Part shown: piece by piece, positions 8,354-61,538 of the stretch
How positions within the stretch are numbered: position 1 is the first letter of the stretch
How the letters are laid out: the number at the start of each line of letters is the position of its first letter
From: Pedobacter petrophilus
Lineage (GTDB): Bacteria; Bacteroidota; Bacteroidia; Sphingobacteriales; Sphingobacteriaceae
Reading direction: 5' to 3'
Length of the DNA stretch: 64,000 bases
Assembly: GCF_009674725.1 (NCBI RefSeq)
Contig: NZ_WKKH01000019.1
Span: forward strand, 1 to 64,000
Made by a program: the position numbers and the translations under genes
The notes under the pieces: generated by a model
Told to the model about the DNA's origin: nothing
Seen by the model: only the letters and a program-made list of their open reading frames with translations
The model's database searches: none

Positions 8354-8409
8354 TTCTGATTTTTTTTAAACTATAGCCTCGTTAAGGCGTTGTTATAAAA
8401 AAATTAAAA

Positions 8410-8991
8410 ATGAGCGAAGATTTAAATCCTATTAATCAACCGAAATTATACATGCTTTTACTGGGCTCGAAAGCACCCAGGAGAAATGTAGAACAGCACG
8501 ACTATTTCTTTGGAATAGCCACATCATTGAAAGAACTTGTTCCAGAAATTAAAGCTTTCTGGCCGGAAGCCGGAGCAAGTATTCATGTTGATGGCTGGAG
8601 AGAAGTAAACCAGGTAGATGGTTATGAAATTAAAATCCTCCCAAGGGAAGCCGCAAATGAAGATTCCCTGCATAAATTATTCTTCACAAATTTAGGCGGT
8701 TATCAGTCGGGCAAATTAGCCGAACAGCATTATATCGTATTAAGCGTAAAGGACGATCGCGCTTCGGCCATTCAGGAAGCTAAAAAAACAGTCTTTTTCA
8801 AAACCAATTCTATAAAAGGTGCAAATGCGCATATTGATGAAAAATACGGCATTGATATCGACGATATTTATCGTGTGGAAGAGATCTTAAGTCCGGTTTT
8901 TAAAGAGAAATATCATATCCAGATTTCGCCAGGCAGTGCTTTGCCGGAAGATGAAATTCATTTAGGTTATTTCAAACTCGATAAATTATAA
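8410..8991 (+). CDS. DUF1543 domain-containing protein
   Basis: 193-residue soluble protein with two similar halves. Each begins with a beta strand and a GxY/F-type motif (LYMLLLGSKAPRRNVEQHD in the first; KLFFTNLGGYQSG in the second), followed by the conserved helix pattern of DUF1543. No catalytic motif or signal peptide is seen, and no biochemical role is known to me for the family. It sits alone, 56 bases after the anti-sigma gene on the same strand, so read-through is possible. Confidence 0.75.
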   Translation: MSEDLNPINQPKLYMLLLGSKAPRRNVEQHDYFFGIATSLKELVPEIKAFWPEAGASIHVDGWREVNQVDGYEIKILPREAANEDSLHKLFFTNLGGYQSGKLAEQHYIVLSVKDDRASAIQEAKKTVFFKTNSIKGANAHIDEKYGIDIDDIYRVEEILSPVFKEKYHIQISPGSALPEDEIHLGYFKLDKL

Positions 8992-9076
8992 TATTCTAAA
9001 ATCGTTTACGCCTCAGCATTCTCCAAACCATTCTGTAAATAACATGTTATTAGTGATACAACAAAAAACCAATAGT

Positions 9077-9664
9077 ATGAAAAAGTTAATTTATGTAATG
9101 GCAATTTCTGCTTCAGCATTAGCATTTCAAGCCTGCAGTGGCGAAAACAAAGATGCTAAAGAAAGCGCAGACAGTTTAAACCAGGCGAAAGACACGACTA
9201 CAAACGAAGCCGCAACGGGCGGAATCGCCGTTGATGATGCAGATTCTAAATTTGCAACAACCGCAGCTGTAGGCGGAATGGCTGAAGTGGAGTTAGGCAA
9301 GTTAGCCCTTCAAAAAAGCAGTAATGCGCAGGTTAAAGAATTTGCAACAATGATGGTTACAGATCATGGCAACGCAAACATGGAGTTAATGACGATTGCA
9401 AAAACCAAAAACATCACGCTTCCAACAACTCTTGATGCAGATCACCAGAAAAAATTAGATGATTTAAGTAAAAAATCTGGCGCAGATTTCGACAAAGCAT
9501 ATGTGAGTGATATGATCGACGGACACAAATCTACCTTAAAGTTAATGGAAGATGAATCGAAAAACGCTAAAGATGTTGAATTAAAGGGTTTTGCTACCAA
9601 AACTGCACCTATTGTTCAAAGTCATTTAGTTATGATTAATAAAATTAACGATTCGATGAAATAG
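9077..9664 (+). CDS. DUF4142 lipoprotein
   Basis: 195-residue lipoprotein. I place the start at the internal ATG at 9077 rather than 9044, because it gives a clean lipoprotein signal (MKKLIYVMAISASALAFQAC, lipobox Cys at residue 20). The mature part has a low-complexity Ala/Asp/Lys linker. A helical domain follows, from about residue 65 to the end, with the DUF4142 pattern EVELGKLALQKSSNAQVKEF, DHGNANMELM and KAYVSDMIDGHKSTLKLMED. Members are predicted ferritin-like periplasmic helical bundles; function is not established. A bidirectional terminator follows. Confidence 0.85.
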   Translation: MKKLIYVMAISASALAFQACSGENKDAKESADSLNQAKDTTTNEAATGGIAVDDADSKFATTAAVGGMAEVELGKLALQKSSNAQVKEFATMMVTDHGNANMELMTIAKTKNITLPTTLDADHQKKLDDLSKKSGADFDKAYVSDMIDGHKSTLKLMEDESKNAKDVELKGFATKTAPIVQSHLVMINKINDSMK

Positions 9665-54370: not shown

Positions 54371-55714
54371 TTAGGTTTCTGATGGAAATGATATTCCTTT
54401 AATGTTGCGATATAAATCAACCGCATACAAATCAGTCATGCCCGAAACAAAATCTAAAACACTTTGTGTACGGGAGTAAATATCGGTTAAGTCGGTATGG
54501 TATTGCTTTGGAATAAGCTTTACCAGTTTTTGATAATAGTGTGTATTATTATTAATCAGTGCTGGAACAAATTCTTCCAGTAAACCAGCCATAATTTTAT
54601 AGCCTGCAACCTCTTTTTGTATTACTGATGAGAAGTTATAGATTCGCTCTATGGATACCGTCTCTATTGCTTTCCACGAGGTTAAATAAGGCTCTGGCAA
54701 AAGGTCGGTAAGGCTATAATTCAATTCACCTTTTAACAAAGCTTCCTGCTGATCAAAAAAGATACCAGCGCAAATATTAGTAAGCGTATTAATCGCCTTT
54801 GCCCTGAGTAAACCTATTTTTGCATCATCGTCTTCGTAATCATTTTTTAACCTGTCTTCTATTGTGTTAGAATTGGAGAAAGGCAATAAATAGTTTTTTA
54901 CTTCTTCGTAAGATAAAATTTTTAAACGGTGTGCATCTTCCAAATCAATAATACTATAACAAATATCATCGGCTGCTTCAACCAAATAAACCAACGGATG
55001 CCTTTTGTAAATCAGGTATTCGTTTTCCTCTCGGGTTAACCTTAGTTCAGTTGCAATCTTTTTGAATGTTTCTTCTTCCGACTGGAAAAAACCATACTTC
55101 TTTCTATGTAAAAGTTTTTTTTGTTTCCCGGCTATTGATGCGCAAGGGTACTTGGCAATGGACGCTAAGGTTGAATAAGTTAAAGCATAAGCATCATTTC
55201 CCTTTCCCTTTAACGGATGTGTAAGGATTCTAATGGCGTTCGCATTCCCTTCAAAATTAGTGAGATCTTGCCACTGCGATGCTTTCATTTCCTTTTCATA
55301 AACGCGACCGTCACCGTCAGTAAAATACCTCGATATTGCGGCTTCGCCTGAATGACCGAATGCGGGGTTGCCAAGATCGTGAGCAAGTGCCGCCGCCGCT
55401 ACAATATTTCCGACTTCATTAATTAAAGGCACTTCCTTAATTAATGAAGGCTGATGTTCTTCGAGGTTATTGAGAAAGATGTTTGCCATTGAACGGGCTA
55501 CACTTGCCACCTCTAAACTATGTGTTAACCGATTATGAACAAAAACGCTTCCTGGCAAGGGAAACACCTGCGTTTTATTTTGCAAGCGCCTGAATGGAGA
55601 AGAAAATATTAAGCGATCATAATCCCTTTGAAAATCTGACCGGGCCTTATCCCGATCACCCGTCCAACTCTCCTGCCCAAATCTTTTATTCGAAAGTAAA
55701 TATTTCCACTCCAT
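54371..55714 (-). CDS. dgt: Deoxyguanosinetriphosphate triphosphohydrolase
   Basis: 447-residue HD-domain enzyme that cleaves dGTP (or other dNTPs) to the nucleoside and triphosphate. HD ligands: H65 (NRLTHSLEV), H112-D113 (AALAHDLGNPAFGHSGE) and the later Asp near 220 (YLVEAADDICYSIID). The N-terminal SPFRRLQNKTQVFPL segment is typical of Dgt. Length fits the group-2 type. It is followed closely by the YiiX-like gene. Confidence 0.92.
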   Translation of the reverse strand: MEWKYLLSNKRFGQESWTGDRDKARSDFQRDYDRLIFSSPFRRLQNKTQVFPLPGSVFVHNRLTHSLEVASVARSMANIFLNNLEEHQPSLIKEVPLINEVGNIVAAAALAHDLGNPAFGHSGEAAISRYFTDGDGRVYEKEMKASQWQDLTNFEGNANAIRILTHPLKGKGNDAYALTYSTLASIAKYPCASIAGKQKKLLHRKKYGFFQSEEETFKKIATELRLTREENEYLIYKRHPLVYLVEAADDICYSIIDLEDAHRLKILSYEEVKNYLLPFSNSNTIEDRLKNDYEDDDAKIGLLRAKAINTLTNICAGIFFDQQEALLKGELNYSLTDLLPEPYLTSWKAIETVSIERIYNFSSVIQKEVAGYKIMAGLLEEFVPALINNNTHYYQKLVKLIPKQYHTDLTDIYSRTQSVLDFVSGMTDLYAVDLYRNIKGISFPSET

Positions 55715-55844: not shown

Positions 55845-56491
55845 ATGAAAAAAATCTTATTAACCCTCACGGTGTTGTTTGCGCTATTGTCAACTGTTCA
55901 GGCACAATTCGAAGGCTCGAAGCAAATTTTTGAAAGTCCTAAATTAAAAGAGGCCGTTAAATTGCAAAAACTGGTTGCTATCTTGCCTTTTGAGGTGAAA
56001 ATTTCTATCGCAAACAGCCTAAGAACTTCAATGCAGATGCTAACAAAGCACAAGAATTGTCAATGGCGAAATCGATACAGGCCAGCATGTACACTTTCCT
56101 GTTAAGAAAAAGTGATGATTACACCGTTGCATTTCAAGATGTAAACAAAACTAATATTTTGTTAAAAAAAGCCGGCGTTTTAGATAAGCTAGATGAAACA
56201 ACCAAGGATGAGCTTGCTAAAATTTTAGGCGTAGATGCTGTAATTGGCGGGAAGTTTGAAACAGAACAGACAAAAACTGAAGCTGGTGCAATTGCATCTG
56301 CAGTATTATTTGGTGGCCTCGGCGGCAAATCCGGAACAGGCACCATGTTCTTAACCATTAATAATGGTACAGATGGAGAATTGTTGTGGCGTTTTTTCAA
56401 AACAATGGATGATAATATTTTGGGTTCTACCGATGATATGGTTGAGCGCATGATGCGGAAAATATCAAGGAATTTCCCTTATAAAAGTTAA
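55845..56491 (+). pseudogene. Secreted protein of unknown function, broken by a one-base deletion
   Basis: The first frame encodes a signal peptide (MKKILLTLTVLFALLSTVQAQ) and continues to VAILPFEVKIS. After 56003-56006 the correct reading moves to another frame, giving YRKQPKNFNADANKAQELSMAKS and then a normal protein to 56491. Inserting one base near 56005 joins both into one protein of about 215 residues. The product contains LGVDAVIGGKFETEQT and GELLWRFFKTMDD, and resembles secreted proteins of the CsgG/DUF-type class, but I name no family. Either a true frameshift or a sequencing error. Confidence 0.8.
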
Positions 56492-56600
56492 AAGGCAGAA
56501 CTTATGCATACGTTTTTAACACACGCTATGAAGGAGCAGTTCAAAGATCAATCAATAGAAACTATTTACGGCCTAATCTGTTTTTCTTAAAACTAAAATT

Positions 56601-56987
56601 ATGAAAACGAGCGTTTATAATAAAGATGAGCATACTGAAGGTTATTTTGGTAAGGGGAAAAGTGAAAAAAAATCTGAGGTTCAAAAGGAATATGAAAAAG
56701 GTAATGACGGAAATGAAGTTACCGCTTTTGGCCGAGCTCCGATTGCTGAAGAAAATGCCAATGGCTTTAATGAAGGTAATATCAAAGCAAAAGATGGACT
56801 GGACAATACCGGTACTCAAGGCAAAGACTCTCTAAGCGACGACACCTATAACAGCTCTGACACCCGGCATACCATAGAAAGCGCAGCAAGCGGAACAGGT
56901 AGCTCATCTGAAGATTTCAAAGATGATCAGGATAAATCTAATATAAAACAACGAGACGAAGACGATGCGCTCAATACAGGGATATAA
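56601..56987 (+). CDS. Hydrophilic, probably disordered protein
   Basis: 128 residues with almost no hydrophobic stretch: very rich in Asp, Glu, Gly, Asn, Lys and Ser, no Cys or Trp. Landmarks: EGYFGKGKSEKKSEVQKEY and a Ser/Asp-rich C-terminal half. No domain is recognised. Such hydrophilin-like proteins often respond to osmotic or desiccation stress, but this is inference. It starts 110 bases after the frameshifted gene and is followed by a 64-residue membrane protein 9 bases on. Confidence 0.65.
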   Translation: MKTSVYNKDEHTEGYFGKGKSEKKSEVQKEYEKGNDGNEVTAFGRAPIAEENANGFNEGNIKAKDGLDNTGTQGKDSLSDDTYNSSDTRHTIESAASGTGSSSEDFKDDQDKSNIKQRDEDDALNTGI

Positions 56988-56996
56988 ATTTAAATT

Positions 56997-57191
56997 ATGG
57001 GACTATCGAAATATATTTTTTGGGGTACAGCTTCTGTTTTTGTACTTCACTATTTAACAAAAAAAAGGTTATCAGACGGGAAATCTGTTATTGACGACAT
57101 TATGGAGAAGGCGCCAAAAATAGTTAAAGAAGTAAATACGATAAAGCGAAATATTAAGATGGATTATGAACAAACTACCGGCTTATATTAA
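56997..57191 (+). CDS. Small single-span membrane protein
   Basis: 64 residues with one N-terminal hydrophobic stretch (YIFWGTASVFVLHYL) followed by a basic helix and an amphipathic C-terminus (KAPKIVKEVNTIKRNI). No family recognised. It lies 9 bases after the hydrophilic-protein gene on the same strand, so both are probably one transcript. YtxH-like small stress proteins have a similar layout, but the match is weak. Confidence 0.6.
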   Translation: MGLSKYIFWGTASVFVLHYLTKKRLSDGKSVIDDIMEKAPKIVKEVNTIKRNIKMDYEQTTGLY

Positions 57192-57353
57192 GCTACACGT
57201 TTATTAATTATTTCTAAGTTACAAACGAAGCAAAGTATTGACAAAAGCCAATAATTGTTTGTGATGACTATTTGATTTCTACGGTTAAGTTATCACTTTT
57301 GATATGCCTAAAATTCGCAACTGTTACAGATTGTAAAACCTACCTAAGAACAT

Positions 57354-57638
57354 CTATGTTTCTGGGTTACCCCCAAGGCCTTTATCTTCATCGCTGTTTC
57401 TATTGGCCAAATCTTCACCTTCACTTAGGTTTGTGTTTGTTAAGTTGCTGTTTACATCCTCTTCAGCATCATTAACTTTAGCAATATGATTTTCATCAGG
57501 AACGTTTTTTCTTTTAAATGGTGAATCGCTGATTGTATGGCCGTAGGTAGCATCAGCATTATCCCACTCTATATTTTGATCAGGCGTTTGATTCTGATGA
57601 TCTCCCTGAGCTCCATGTGCTTTATTATCAGTGTTCAT
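57354..57638 (-). CDS. Hydrophilic, probably disordered protein
   Basis: 94 residues, rich in Asp, Asn, Glu, Gly and Gln, no hydrophobic core (MNTDNKAHGAQGDHQNQ at the start; SEGEDLANRNSDEDKGLGGN near the end, given in part). No domain recognised. Opposite strand to the similar protein at 56601, so it has its own promoter; I see no clear consensus in the 336 bases upstream, which are AT-rich and hold no other gene. Confidence 0.6.
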   Translation of the reverse strand: MNTDNKAHGAQGDHQNQTPDQNIEWDNADATYGHTISDSPFKRKNVPDENHIAKVNDAEEDVNSNLTNTNLSEGEDLANRNSDEDKGLGGNPET

Positions 57639-57974
57639 ATCATATAAATTTTAGTTACTTTATTGTTAACACCACTGTTAATAGAATGTTTATCAATTTG
57701 CCATTTAATTTTGTATGATAGTTAGTATAACAATTTAGTTTTGTTAACTGCCACATCGTAAAATATGAAATAAATTCCTGAAATTTAAAATGGCCACATG
57801 GTTGGTTAAGACTCACTTAACTATTCACAACGACGAAACCTGTATTCAAAATTAAATTTACTAAAATGATTTAAAGGCGTACAAATACCTACATTTTAAG
57901 TATAAACACATATTTTGCACTTTGATATTATTTCGATATTTGGGTTAAACTAGATTGACTAATATCCTACAAAC
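57639..57974. other. Gene-free gap before the response regulator
   Basis: Very AT-rich intergenic DNA between two divergent genes. I see no convincing open frame, repeat or exact TAnnTTTG promoter. It must hold the promoters of both neighbours. Confidence 0.5.
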
Positions 57975-58631
57975 TTGAAGATTCCAATTAAAATTTTAAT
58001 CGTTGACGGACAGGCAACAGTAAGAAATGGAATAATTTCCCGTCTGGAAAGAGAGGTTAATATTAAAGTAATTGGCGAAGCAGCTAATGGAATTGAAGTT
58101 CTTCGCTTACTTCAAAATGGCATCAAGCCAGATATCGTTATCACAGATATTGAAATGAATAAGATGGATGGTTTGGAACTTACTTCGCTGATTAAGTTAA
58201 ATTATCCGGAGATTAAAGTCCTTGTATTTACGACAACTGATAGCAAAAATGATATGATCAGATTGTTTGATGCTGGCGCTGATGGCTACCTGCTAAAAAA
58301 TGTAACCATTGCCGAGGTAGTATTTGCTATCGAACAAACCTATATCGGATACAAACATATTTGTTCGGCAGTTGGAATCAATTTATTAAGGCATTTCAGC
58401 ACGTTGGCAGGTGGTCAGCCAAATTCGAAATCAGATATTCAAATATCAAAAAGAGAGATAGAAATCCTGAGTTTGATTGCCGAAGGTTATACCAATAGTG
58501 AAATTGCTGAAAAGCTTTATACCAGTAAGCGAACAATTGAAGGAAACCGGCAGAATCTCCTGGATAAAACCGGTAAAAAAAACACTGCAGCCTTGATTAA
58601 TTTCGTAGTGAGAAACGGAATAATAGACTAA
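57975..58631 (+). CDS. LuxR/NarL-type response regulator
   Basis: 218 residues, starting at TTG; an in-frame stop lies 15 bases upstream (57960) and no earlier ATG or GTG is possible. The receiver domain spans residues 1-120 with phospho-acceptor D58 (VITDIEM), T87/T88 and K108 (LLKNV). The usual second acidic residue is G12 instead of Asp (IVDGQ). A LuxR helix-turn-helix follows at about 150-215 (EGYTNSEIAEKLYTSKRTIE). No histidine kinase is adjacent, so it is an orphan. It lies among genes for hydrophilic proteins. Confidence 0.9.
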   Translation: MKIPIKILIVDGQATVRNGIISRLEREVNIKVIGEAANGIEVLRLLQNGIKPDIVITDIEMNKMDGLELTSLIKLNYPEIKVLVFTTTDSKNDMIRLFDAGADGYLLKNVTIAEVVFAIEQTYIGYKHICSAVGINLLRHFSTLAGGQPNSKSDIQISKREIEILSLIAEGYTNSEIAEKLYTSKRTIEGNRQNLLDKTGKKNTAALINFVVRNGIID

Positions 58632-58635
58632 TCAG

Positions 58636-58905
58636 TTACTTTACTCCTTTTTGCTGATCTAAACCCGTATCGCTATCTACATCCTTTTTACCTGATCCAT
58701 TTCCCTCTCTATGTTCGGGAGGATTTTCCATTCTGCTTTCCTCTAATTCTGAAAAATCACCGCCTTTTTGATTGGCAACTTCACCATGTGATGAAGGCTT
58801 TTTACCTATTTCATCTTTAGGATCTGCAAAATCCTGACCTTTTACCGGCAAACCTTCTTCTTCTTCCAATGGCTTATTCATGCCTATTAAACCGATAGTG
58901 ATCAT
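58636..58905 (-). CDS. Hydrophilic, probably disordered protein
   Basis: 89 residues (81 if started at the second Met, 58881), rich in Glu, Gly, Lys and Asp. Landmarks: NKPLEEEEGLPVKGQDF and the C-terminal GSGKKDVDSDTGLDQQ. No domain recognised. It converges with the response regulator gene, with 4 bases between stops, and is the third protein of this type within 2.3 kb. It lies immediately downstream of the rpsJ terminator. Confidence 0.6.
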   Translation of the reverse strand: MITIGLIGMNKPLEEEEGLPVKGQDFADPKDEIGKKPSSHGEVANQKGGDFSELEESRMENPPEHREGNGSGKKDVDSDTGLDQQKGVK

Positions 58906-58930
58906 TTTTGTTTGAAAAGATAGTACATAA

Positions 58931-58959
58931 AAAAAGTCGTGATTTTCATCACGACTTTT
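58931..58959 (-). terminator. Terminator after rpsJ
   Basis: GTCGTGAT-TTTC-ATCACGAC, a perfect 8-base stem extended by A/T pairs. On the minus strand it is followed by seven T, 20 bases after rpsJ. It separates the str genes from the rest of the S10 cluster. Confidence 0.9.
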
Positions 58960-58978: not shown

Positions 58979-59284
58979 TTAAACTTTGATTTCTACTTCA
59001 ACACCGCTAGGTAATTCAAGTTTCATTAAAGCATCAACTGTTTTAGAGTTAGAGCTGTAGATATCCAATAAGCGTTTGTAAGCGCATAACTGAAACTGCT
59101 CTCTAGCTTTTTTGTTAACGTGTGGAGAACGTAAAACAGTAAAGATTTTTTTCTCTGTAGGAAGTGGAATTGGTCCACTTACAACTGCACCCGTAGGTTT
59201 AACAGTTTTTACGATTTTCTCAGCAGATTTATCTACTAAGTTGTAATCGTAAGATTTTAATTTAATTCTGATTCTTTGGCTCAT
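58979..59284 (-). CDS. rpsJ: 30S ribosomal protein S10
   Basis: 101-residue head protein, also the NusE component of antitermination complexes. Landmarks: [40 protein letters not shown] and [13 protein letters not shown]. It follows fusA, as in many bacteria, but is not followed by rplC: a terminator and 9.5 kb of other genes intervene. Confidence 0.98.
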
Positions 59285-59354
59285 CTTATTTTTAATTGTG
59301 ATTTCCTGTTAGAGCTATTAACAACAGAAATCGGATTTATCCTTTTTCAGTAAC

Positions 59355-59410
59355 AAGTATTTAGTATCGAGTATCAAGATTCCATGCAGGTCTTGATACT
59401 TGATACTTTT
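59355..59410. repeat. Word-repeat hairpin, fusA-rpsJ gap
   Basis: AGTATCGAGTATCAAGA (59363-59379) and TCTTGATACTTGATACT (59391-59407) pair at 16 of 17 positions around an 11-base loop. The arms are made of the tandem word AGTATCA. Same construction as the other word hairpins but a different word. Confidence 0.85.
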
Positions 59411-59423
59411 ATCTTAATACTAA

Positions 59424-61538
59424 CTAGTCTTCAGATTTTACTCTTCCTTTTGACTTCGCAATTACTTCATCCTGTACATTTTTAGGCGCAGCTTCATAAT
59501 GGTCAAATTCCATTGTAGAAGTTGCACGTCCTGAAGTGATTGTACGTAATTGAGTTACGTAACCGAACATTTCAGAAAGTGGCACAGTTGCTTTAATTAC
59601 CTGAGATCCGTTACGGGTATCCATACCTAATAACTGGCCACGACGACGGTTCATATCACCGATAACATCACCCATGTTTTCTTCAGGTGTTAAGATTTCG
59701 ATTTTCATGATTGGCTCCATCAAAGTTGGCTTACATTTCGGTAAAGCTTCACGATATGCCATTTTAGCTGCAAGTTCAAATGATAAAGCATCTGAATCGA
59801 CTGCGTGGAATGAACCATCCGTTAAACGAACTTTCATATCAGGAAGTGGATAACCTGCCAATACACCATTTGCCATAGAAGCAGCAAAACCTTTTTCTAC
59901 TGAAGGAATAAATTCACGTGGAATTGAACCACCTGTAATTTCGTTTACGAATTGTAAACCACCTTTTTCAAAATCAGCATCAATTGGGGAGATAACTACC
60001 GAAATATCGGCAAATTTACCACGACCACCTGATTGTTTCTTGTATGTTTCACGATGAGTTGTTGTACCGAAAATAGCTTCTTTGTAAGCTACTTGTGGAG
60101 CACCCTGGTTAACCTCTACTTTAAATTCACGTTTTAAACGATCAATCAAGATATCTAAGTGAAGCTCACCCATACCAGAGATTACAGTTTGACCAGTTTC
60201 CTGATCAGTCTGAACTCTAAATGTAGGATCTTCTTCAGCCAATTTACCTAATCCAATACCCAATTTATCAACATCAGCCTGAGTTTTAGGCTCAATAGCT
60301 AAACCGATAACGGGCTCAGGGAAGTTCATTGATTCAAGAACGATTGGATTTTTCTCTTCACAAAGTGTATCTCCTGTTTTGATATCTTTAAATCCAACTA
60401 CTGCAGCAATATCACCAGCAGCCACATTCGGAACCGGGTTTTGCTTGTTCGCGTGCATTTGGAAGATGCGGGAAATACGCTCTTTACTTTCTGAACGTGA
60501 ATTATATACGTAAGAACCTGCTTCTAAGTTACCTGAGTATACACGGATAAAACACAAACGACCTACAAATGGATCGGTTGCAATTTTAAATGCTAAAGCT
60601 GCAAACGGTTCACTAATGCTTGGTTTTAATAAAACTTCCGCACCAGTATCAGGGTTTGTACCAGTAACACCTTCGCTATCCATAGGAGAAGGCAATAATT
60701 CCATCACATAATCCAACATGGTTTGAACACCTTTGTTTTTGAAAGATGAACCACAAACCATAGGTACAATTTTAGCATCTAATACCGCAGCACGTAAAGC
60801 ATCTAAAACTTCGCGTTCTGTAATGGTATCAGGTGCATCGAAGAATTTCTCCATTAAAGACTCATCATAATCAGCAACTGATTCTAACAATTTCTCTCTC
60901 CACTCTGCAACTTCATCAATCATATCTTCAGGAATAGGCACTTCAGTAAAGGTCATTCCTTTATCATGCTCATTCCAAACAATACCACGGTTGTTAATTA
61001 AATCAACCACACCTTTAAATCCGTCTTCAGCACCGATAGGTAATTGCAATGGAACTGCATTACTACCTAACATATCTTTAACCTGCTTAACAACTTTTAA
61101 AAAGTCAGCACCCGAACGATCCATTTTGTTAACGAAACCAATACGTGGTACACTGTAATTATTCGCTAAACGCCAGTTGGTTTCTGATTGAGGCTCAACA
61201 CCATCAACAGCAGAAAACAAAAACACCAATCCGTCTAACACCCGTAACGAACGGTTTACCTCAACGGTAAAATCCACGTGACCTGGTGTATCAATAACGT
61301 TAACATGATATTTTTGACCTCTGTAATTCCAATCAACAGTTGTAGCAGCAGAGGTAATGGTAATACCACGCTCTTGCTCTTGTGCCATCCAATCCATTGT
61401 TGCAGCACCTTCGTGCACTTCACCAATTTTATGACTTACACCAGCATAATAAAGAATACGCTCTGTTGTTGTAGTTTTACCTGCATCAATGTGAGCCGCG
61501 ATTCCAATATTTCTTGTAAATTTTAAATCTCTTGCCAT
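59424..61538 (-). CDS. fusA: Elongation factor G
   Basis: 704-residue translational GTPase that moves tRNAs and mRNA after peptide-bond formation. GTPase motifs: [15 protein letters not shown] (P loop), [11 protein letters not shown] and [13 protein letters not shown] domain IV is marked by RGKFADISV-like [12 protein letters not shown] and the C-terminal [14 protein letters not shown] segment. Length is normal. Located between rpsG and rpsJ. Confidence 0.98.

Follow-up and report, generated by a model that had tools for sequence, protein, structure and literature searches.

Three genes for small disordered proteins, here called A, B and C, were found on both strands of a 64,000-nucleotide stretch of Pedobacter petrophilus DNA (contig NZ_WKKH01000019.1, positions 1 to 64,000; the window), grouped with a small membrane protein gene (M) and a response regulator gene. 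As judged from their sequences, A, B and C are hydrophilin-like proteins specific to the Pedobacter lineage, and we consider it rather probable that they are lineage-specific hydrophilins belonging to a stress regulon under an extracytoplasmic function (ECF) sigma factor of the SigK/RskA type. The genes of the locus are as follows:

56601..56987, + strand: gene A, hydrophilin-like disordered protein of 128 residues, with the C-terminal core DG.DN(T/S)GTQG.DSL(S/T)DD...TGSSS.DF
56997..57191, + strand: gene M, 64 residues with one hydrophobic N-terminal segment (by reading of the sequence), 9 bp 3' of A
57354..57638, - strand: gene B, hydrophilin-like disordered protein of 94 residues, with the conserved blocks (E)WDN...TYGH and F(K/R)RK
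57975..58631, + strand: NarL/LuxR-type response regulator, 218 residues from the listed TTG start, with Response_reg and GerE domains
58636..58905, - strand: gene C, hydrophilin-like disordered protein of 89 residues as called, with a conserved FSELEESRMENPP block containing a predicted helix

The true start of C is probably the conserved Met-9 at 58881, giving 81 residues, because the first residues of the called frame are not conserved. Searches of Pfam and NCBIfam returned no family covering A, B, C or M (best scores, E 0.13 and 0.42), a PDB sequence search with A gave no match, and no paper on these proteins appeared among the literature matches listed.

The evidence for a common regulation came from the upstream regions, where a motif of the ECF type was first seen by aligning 19 loci. 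In the window it precedes each of the three genes, N17 standing for 17 free positions:

56559..56582, + strand: AAAC-N17-GTT of the ECF promoter type in front of A, with 18 bp between it and the ATG
57668..57691, - strand: AAAC-N17-GTT of the ECF promoter type in front of B, with 29 bp between it and the ATG
58890..58913, - strand: AAAC-N17-GTT of the ECF promoter type in front of C, with 8 bp between it and the conserved ATG

A scan for A over one genome per species (84,980 species) gave 76 loci, 45 with a full-length or nearly full-length copy and 31 with the core only. Within 85 bp upstream, AAAC-N17/18-GTT was present before A in 46/46 regions, before B in 41/41 and before C in 43/46, and before M in 0/34, A and M forming a probable operon. 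Dinucleotide shuffles of the same regions gave means of 0.4 to 1.6 and at most 8 in a single shuffle. The 85-bp span was used for C, counts of the N17 form over 150 bp taking in matches inside the rpsJ coding sequence. The spacing before B was N18 in 31 of the 41 loci, and N17 in the window. At either spacing the motif was absent from the genes of the locus taken as controls (dgt, 0/39; rpsJ, 0/43; fusA, 0/4) and from the region before the response regulator (0/17). When the first base was left free (AAC-N17/18-GTT), the count was complete for A (46/46), B (41/41) and C (46/46), and high for a candidate sigma factor gene (28/30), a fourth hydrophilic gene (29/30) and a glycosyltransferase gene (21/30), the last three being described below. 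Pooled over these six gene sets, the sequences carried the bipartite arrangement looked for in an ECF regulon, an AAC-type -35 and a GT-containing -10 at fixed spacing, in 211 of 223 regions, as against 31 of 361 background open reading frames (ORFs).

The distance from motif to start was 8-36 bp in the upstream regions displayed. The motif of C also lies 8 bp before the conserved ATG in many relatives, and its transcript, starting from a GTT that ends so close to the ATG, would have a short leader or none. Furthermore, AAAC-N17/18-GTT was found in 24 of the 31 loci where the A core stands alone at another position; of the other seven, four (L118, L121, L125 and L146) have a small hydrophilic ORF immediately 5' of the core gene, itself preceded at some 25-110 bp by AAAC-N17-GTT. 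In the core-only loci a score of 13/31 was reached by the spacing pair 13/14 as well, which may come from a repeated GTT (GTTTGTT) in the sites. Co-regulation of A, B and C through the shared motif is thus well supported by the upstream sequences, and the motif would presumably act as an active promoter.

ECF sigma factors prefer a -35 of the AAC type, and the bases around the motif bear on whether it is a promoter or an operator. Of the 211 sites, 200 have an A immediately before AAC and the other 11 a G; the base that follows GTT, by contrast, depends on the gene, being T in 29/46 sites of gene A, C in 19/28 of the sigma gene and A in 24/29 of the fourth hydrophilic gene. From these preferences outside AAC and GTT it follows that the site is directional over the relatives, placed as a -35/-10 pair. 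The motif could instead be the operator of a dimeric transcription factor, AAAC...GTTT being palindromic with arms about two helical turns apart, and the window sites of A and C can be read on the opposite strand too, shifted by one base. This alternative appears improbable: the asymmetric flanks point the site at its gene, and the 8 bp between site and ATG leave no room for a downstream promoter in C. The box TAnnTTTG, given as the housekeeping -7 element of Bacteroidota in the available text of PMC9723704, was found in just 1 of the 223 motif regions, compared with 27 of 361 background ORFs. The base preferences flanking the two arms led to rejection of the palindromic operator as the leading explanation.

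Local control by the LuxR-type regulator had been proposed in an earlier interpretation made without database searches (the sequence-only reading). The regulator does sit at one constant place, between B and C, and in Acinetobacter baumannii the response regulator BfmR is needed to express a cluster that holds hydrophilins, according to the portion of PMC13232832 available. Activation of A, B and C by the regulator through an unlinked kinase would be the corresponding scheme. Nevertheless, the regulator was present in only 18 of 46 loci (window included), whereas A and C were present in all 46; the other 28 lack it yet have A and C, and in most cases B, behind the same motif. Its presence follows clades, with 3 Fitch changes on a 46-row tree built partly from A and C themselves, and its own gene is without the motif. 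Local control by this regulator was therefore rejected and has little chance of being correct. The regulator may be an optional addition, a clade-specific input that most relatives do not need. By reading it is an orphan at this locus: no recognisable kinase was seen among the ORFs of 54.4-61.5 kb, by reading only and with no kinase search run.

In composition, the three proteins resemble hydrophilins, defined in the accessible part of PMC4190154 by a glycine content above 6% and a mean hydrophilicity above 1 (grand average of hydropathy below -1). The combined share of D, E, G, N, K, S, T and Q reached 73% in A, 67% in B and 66% in C, and glycine alone 10.9, 7.4 and 14.6%, respectively. Hydrophilicity was judged by the negative Kyte-Doolittle mean alone, not by the separate hydrophilicity scale, and was 1.41 for A, 1.48 for B and 1.18 for C. 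Both thresholds were passed by A, B and C and by no other of the 75 ORFs of the window, and elsewhere in the same genome (5.47 Mb) by one of 366 ORFs in the 396 kb sampled, a 128-residue protein rich in Glu and Thr (L147:19170-19556, + strand). All three proteins fell on the disordered side in a charge-hydropathy analysis, in keeping with the intrinsic disorder of hydrophilins. AlphaFold2, run for A and C with alignments of 32 and 31 of the 45 loci plus the window (33 and 32 rows), returned no fold for A (mean predicted local distance difference test score, pLDDT, 53.0; predicted template modelling score, pTM, 0.16) and none for C (pLDDT 63.8, pTM 0.19) beyond one short helix at residues 43-52. 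Composition, thresholds and disorder predictions hence bore out the sequence-only reading of three disordered hydrophilic proteins of 128, 94 and 89 residues, and the small membrane protein and LuxR-type regulator that it had named among them are both there.

The cluster is conserved as a syntenic module. All 45 named Pedobacter loci with full-length A have C; B is present in 40 of them, M in 33 (short or split in L074 and L080) and the response regulator in 17. None of the 45 departs from the gene order A, M, B, (regulator), C. Single-protein searches of 60 sampled genomes of the genus found A in 41, full or nearly full length in 26, and C in 25; a profile of C matched 24 of 201 genomes of the family, all in one of the 25 genera. 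The cluster is flanked in the window by the following genes:

54371-55714, - strand: dgt, left neighbour, named by reading of the protein
58979-61538, - strand: rpsJ-fusA, right neighbours, named by reading of the proteins
58932..58959, no strand assigned: hairpin with a T run between rpsJ and C, seen by eye and read as the fusA-rpsJ terminator

In the relatives rpsJ adjoins C in 43 of 45 loci (the contig ends there in L073, and rpsJ was not found in L094), and dgt lies 5' of A in 39 of the 45 flanks examined, the others being L078, L079, L081, L092, L097 and L107. A hairpin near C is also visible in the alignment of its upstream regions. In the co-occurrence check suggested in the sequence-only reading, the set thus proved to be kept together in relatives, and independent scattering of homologs was observed just for the A core, which recurs elsewhere in relatives, with the same motif in most of its core-only loci.

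The ratio of nonsynonymous to synonymous substitution rates (dN/dS) had medians of 0.093 for A (50 pairs), 0.239 for M (55), 0.355 for B (88) and 0.198 for C (136); two of the 88 pairs of B exceeded 1 and were retained, and one 10-residue row of M was removed from this run while staying in the motif count of 34. These values indicate that the four frames are genuine genes under purifying selection, and chance low-complexity frames were rejected on this ground. As the copies appear to go back to a single ancestral place, their co-occurrence by itself is poor evidence of joint function, and low-complexity genes kept by synteny in one genus, with no function in common, would be the ordinary explanation. 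The single ancestral place of the full-length copies and the confinement of C to one genus fit it. Purifying selection on all four genes, together with one motif type before each transcription unit and before unlinked paralogs, makes this explanation very improbable.

Two relatives showed departures from this arrangement. In Pedobacter changchengzhani a second, partial copy of rpsJ lies between rpsJ and C (L052:1638-1766; L113), C is short, and no M, B or regulator was found. In genome G008 the 6.5 kb examined of locus L042 showed no B, C or rpsJ, nor was C found elsewhere in the genome; it is the only one of the 26 genomes with full or nearly full-length A in which C is missing, and the block seems to have been broken up there.

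A candidate for the controlling factor was obtained from the sigma factors of the same genome, where 30 of the 32 matches to sigma region 2 were examined. One ECF gene, L172 (G000:C3:70071-70622), has AAAC-N17-GTT just upstream, encodes Sigma70_r2 and r4_2 domains and is directly followed by a gene with an RskA_C domain (E 2.3e-18). The same promoter motif in front of a sigma gene is the usual sign of autoregulation, and the sequences thus present an apparently autoregulated sigma factor beside an anti-sigma gene. The AAAC motif was kept in 27 of 30 orthologs. Orthologs of at least 89% identity occurred in 26 of the 60 genomes, by reading of the table the same 26 that hold full or nearly full-length A, an overlap that is not independent support because it follows one clade. 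The L172 product is the best candidate, and a likely one, for the controller of A, B and C.

Additionally, the motif was sought beyond the cluster by comparing spacings from 10 to 24. Among 441 ORFs (460 kb) of the same genome, spacing 17 gave 17 matches, compared with a mean of 3.8 and a maximum of 8 for the other 14 spacings; about a quarter of the 17 sites are expected by chance. The 666 ORFs (800 kb) analysed in a relative had 18 matches at spacing 17, against a mean of 6.1 and a maximum of 9. Two candidate members of the regulon adjoin in the window (8368-9664), and both of their motifs are present also in a near relative:

8368..8991, + strand: DUF1543 gene, with AAAC-N17-GTT at 8368-8391 in front
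9025..9664, + strand (likely start 9077): DUF4142 gene, with AAAC-N17-GTT at 9025-9048 in front

Other candidates in this genome were genes for a short-chain dehydrogenase, a DinB-like protein, a glycosyltransferase and a further hydrophilic protein. The last of these, the fourth hydrophilic protein mentioned above (L148:16101-16508, - strand, 135 residues, no Pfam match), occurs in 30 of 31 Pedobacter genomes, and its AAAC motif, found in 29 of the 30 loci, has N17 in the 14 closest and N18 in most of the more distant ones. The whole window held 31 matches to AAAC-N17-GTT against 16.8 expected, a number reached in none of 100 shuffles; the count covers both strands, so that a palindromic site enters it double, and many of the matches fall within genes. 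With a restricted pattern, a search of the whole genome returned 23 sites, among them that of A in the window, against 14 for a backwards control, a signal too weak for listing a regulon.

The neighbours of eight core-only loci (L053-L060) included GT20 (trehalose-phosphate synthase family), PPK2 and SelR (methionine sulfoxide reductase) genes, in one locus each; one core gene lay among DUF4142, pyrophosphatase and DUF2383 genes and another between response regulators, while the other three had no such neighbours, no control neighbour set having been made. The composition of A, B and C, together with some of these neighbouring and co-motif genes, makes a stress role of the cluster plausible. 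The undescribed stress-protection module envisaged in the sequence-only reading was supported as to the conserved module, the hydrophilin thresholds and the lack of a Pfam or NCBIfam family, and not supported as to local control. The A core was also observed near the start of a family of 139-141 residues and at the end of one of 168-170 residues (L134, L138, L139, L141, L142, L143; L057, L127, L132). One such protein, with the motif, came from a record labelled Flavobacteriaceae bacterium PS02338 (L142), possibly a mislabelled Pedobacter.

The following scheme would account for these results. What the sequences themselves show is that the genes exist and are conserved, and that they share a motif which the control genes lack; that the L172 sigma factor reads the motif, that a stress signal induces it and that the proteins protect the cell is what we infer. 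A(-M), B and C would each be transcribed from their own ECF promoter, (A/G)AAC-N17/18-GTT, and because the motif is shared, one alternative sigma factor would switch them on together despite their lying on both strands. This factor would be held by an RskA-type membrane anti-sigma factor and released on a signal of envelope or osmotic stress, turning on A(-M), B and C along with other stress genes. The disordered proteins would then accumulate and protect cytoplasmic proteins or the inner face of the membrane, at which M could possibly act.

Several observations weigh against this scheme. Concerning the sigma factor, the link of L172 to the motif rests on apparent autoregulation, with 30 of the 32 sigma-region matches covered; three orthologs, at 71-74% identity, are without the AAAC motif, and a second sigma gene (L170) has an N18 match near its start. 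Orthologs or paralogs of the sigma factor were found in 57 of 60 genomes and full or nearly full-length A in 26, so the factor is not specific to the A-B-C cluster. Concerning the motif, none was seen near the core genes of L123, L128 and L135, AAAC-N17 precedes the glycosyltransferase gene in just 13 of 30 loci, and the genome counts at spacing 17 include A and B themselves (2 of 17 sites) and, in the relative, a site inside rpsJ (1 of 18). In two close genomes (76 ORFs) 3 spacing-17 matches were conserved, one of them inside rpsJ, compared with up to 2 at other spacings; site conservation between the window genome and one near relative is not clearly discriminating. As for the loci, most descend from one ancestor, so that the cross-genome counts are not independent, and G008 (L042) holds A, M and the regulator together without B or C.

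The main doubt on function comes from A, whose dN/dS of 0.09 reflects a stronger conservation than a generic protectant needs. Such conservation, beyond what bulk protection would require, leaves open a role in specific binding. A, B and C could then serve in signalling or as adaptors, binding through short linear motifs and not acting as bulk protectants, and the ECF regulon would produce them as specific partners for a machine of the cell. The near-invariant blocks DG.DN.GTQG.DSL.DD in A, TYGH in B and F..LE.SRM..PP in C (the latter with a predicted helix) are consistent with this, as are the low ratio of A over its 50 pairs and the reuse of its core alone and within longer proteins. We hold it to be a possible but rather doubtful explanation: neither a fold nor a known partner was found, the PDB sequence search with A being unmatched, the composition of all three proteins fits hydrophilins, and the neighbours dgt and rpsJ-fusA point to no functional partner.

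Beyond the stress regulon proposed here for A, B and C, a broader and more tentative proposal is that the system represents a general stress response of Pedobacter. In it an RskA-type ECF sigma factor would have converged on the promoter grammar of EcfG, (A/G)AAC-N17-GTT, and its signature output would be a family of disordered proteins built on the new core DG.DN.GTQG.DSL.DD...TGSSS.DF, which occurs by itself, in fusions or in clusters with further disordered proteins. We know of no defined general-stress sigma factor in Bacteroidota. If this proved true, one common soil and freshwater genus would gain a recognisable stress regulon with a searchable promoter, a candidate sigma/anti-sigma pair and new families of disordered proteins would become available for studies of protection against drying, and it could be asked by what means Bacteroidota govern a general stress response. 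It would also show that promoter sequence alone can link disordered proteins that are short and strongly conserved to a regulator.

Outside these subjects, a signal-peptide gene 5' of A (55845-56491, + strand) is split over two frames in the window, and an intact homolog of 215 residues is present in relatives (e.g., L031 and L040), the form in L031 having no Pfam family. The split gene is either a pseudogene or a sequencing error.

In comparison with known systems, the Pedobacter pair resembles sigma/anti-sigma pairs of the SigK/RskA type (SigK being mycobacterial) in that a Sigma70_r2 plus r4_2 gene is directly followed by an RskA_C gene, here with the shared motif before the sigma gene. The EcfG response of Alphaproteobacteria uses the partner-switch proteins PhyR and NepR, which were not searched for in Pedobacter; there the candidate sigma gene is followed by an RskA_C anti-sigma gene instead. 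In the available text of PMC6599016, EcfG of Sphingomonas melonis reads GGAAC-N17-20-GTT, a promoter like (A/G)AAC-N17/18-GTT, and its regulon has many hypothetical proteins among the targets. Because the phylum differs, this likeness may be general to ECF sigma factors. Within Bacteroidota, the SM6 class of ECF promoters of Flavobacterium psychrophilum has a GT-containing -10 and lies, among other places, before a sigma/anti-sigma pair; it differs in that its -10 is CGT and several targets belong to type IX secretion, and no hydrophilin targets are named in the text examined (PMC9723704).

With respect to the proteins, hydrophilins of the Garay-Arroyo type and of the Dtp cluster are, like A, B and C, small, very hydrophilic, Gly-rich and disordered, with clustered genes, as far as the consulted parts of PMC4190154 and PMC13232832 describe them. 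Hydrophilins are, in addition, induced by osmotic stress or dehydration and protect enzymes or cells during drying; stress induction is probable for the Pedobacter proteins too, and protection is their predicted role. In the DtpA/DtpB cluster of Acinetobacter baumannii a catalase gene lies among the hydrophilin genes, with none among those of Pedobacter, and BfmR is in control, whereas the Pedobacter motif points to an ECF sigma factor (PMC13232832, available text). A, B and C also have near-invariant sequence blocks, unlike the Dtp hydrophilins. By analogy, the Dtp hydrophilin cluster of Acinetobacter baumannii appears to be the closest working counterpart of the Pedobacter genes.

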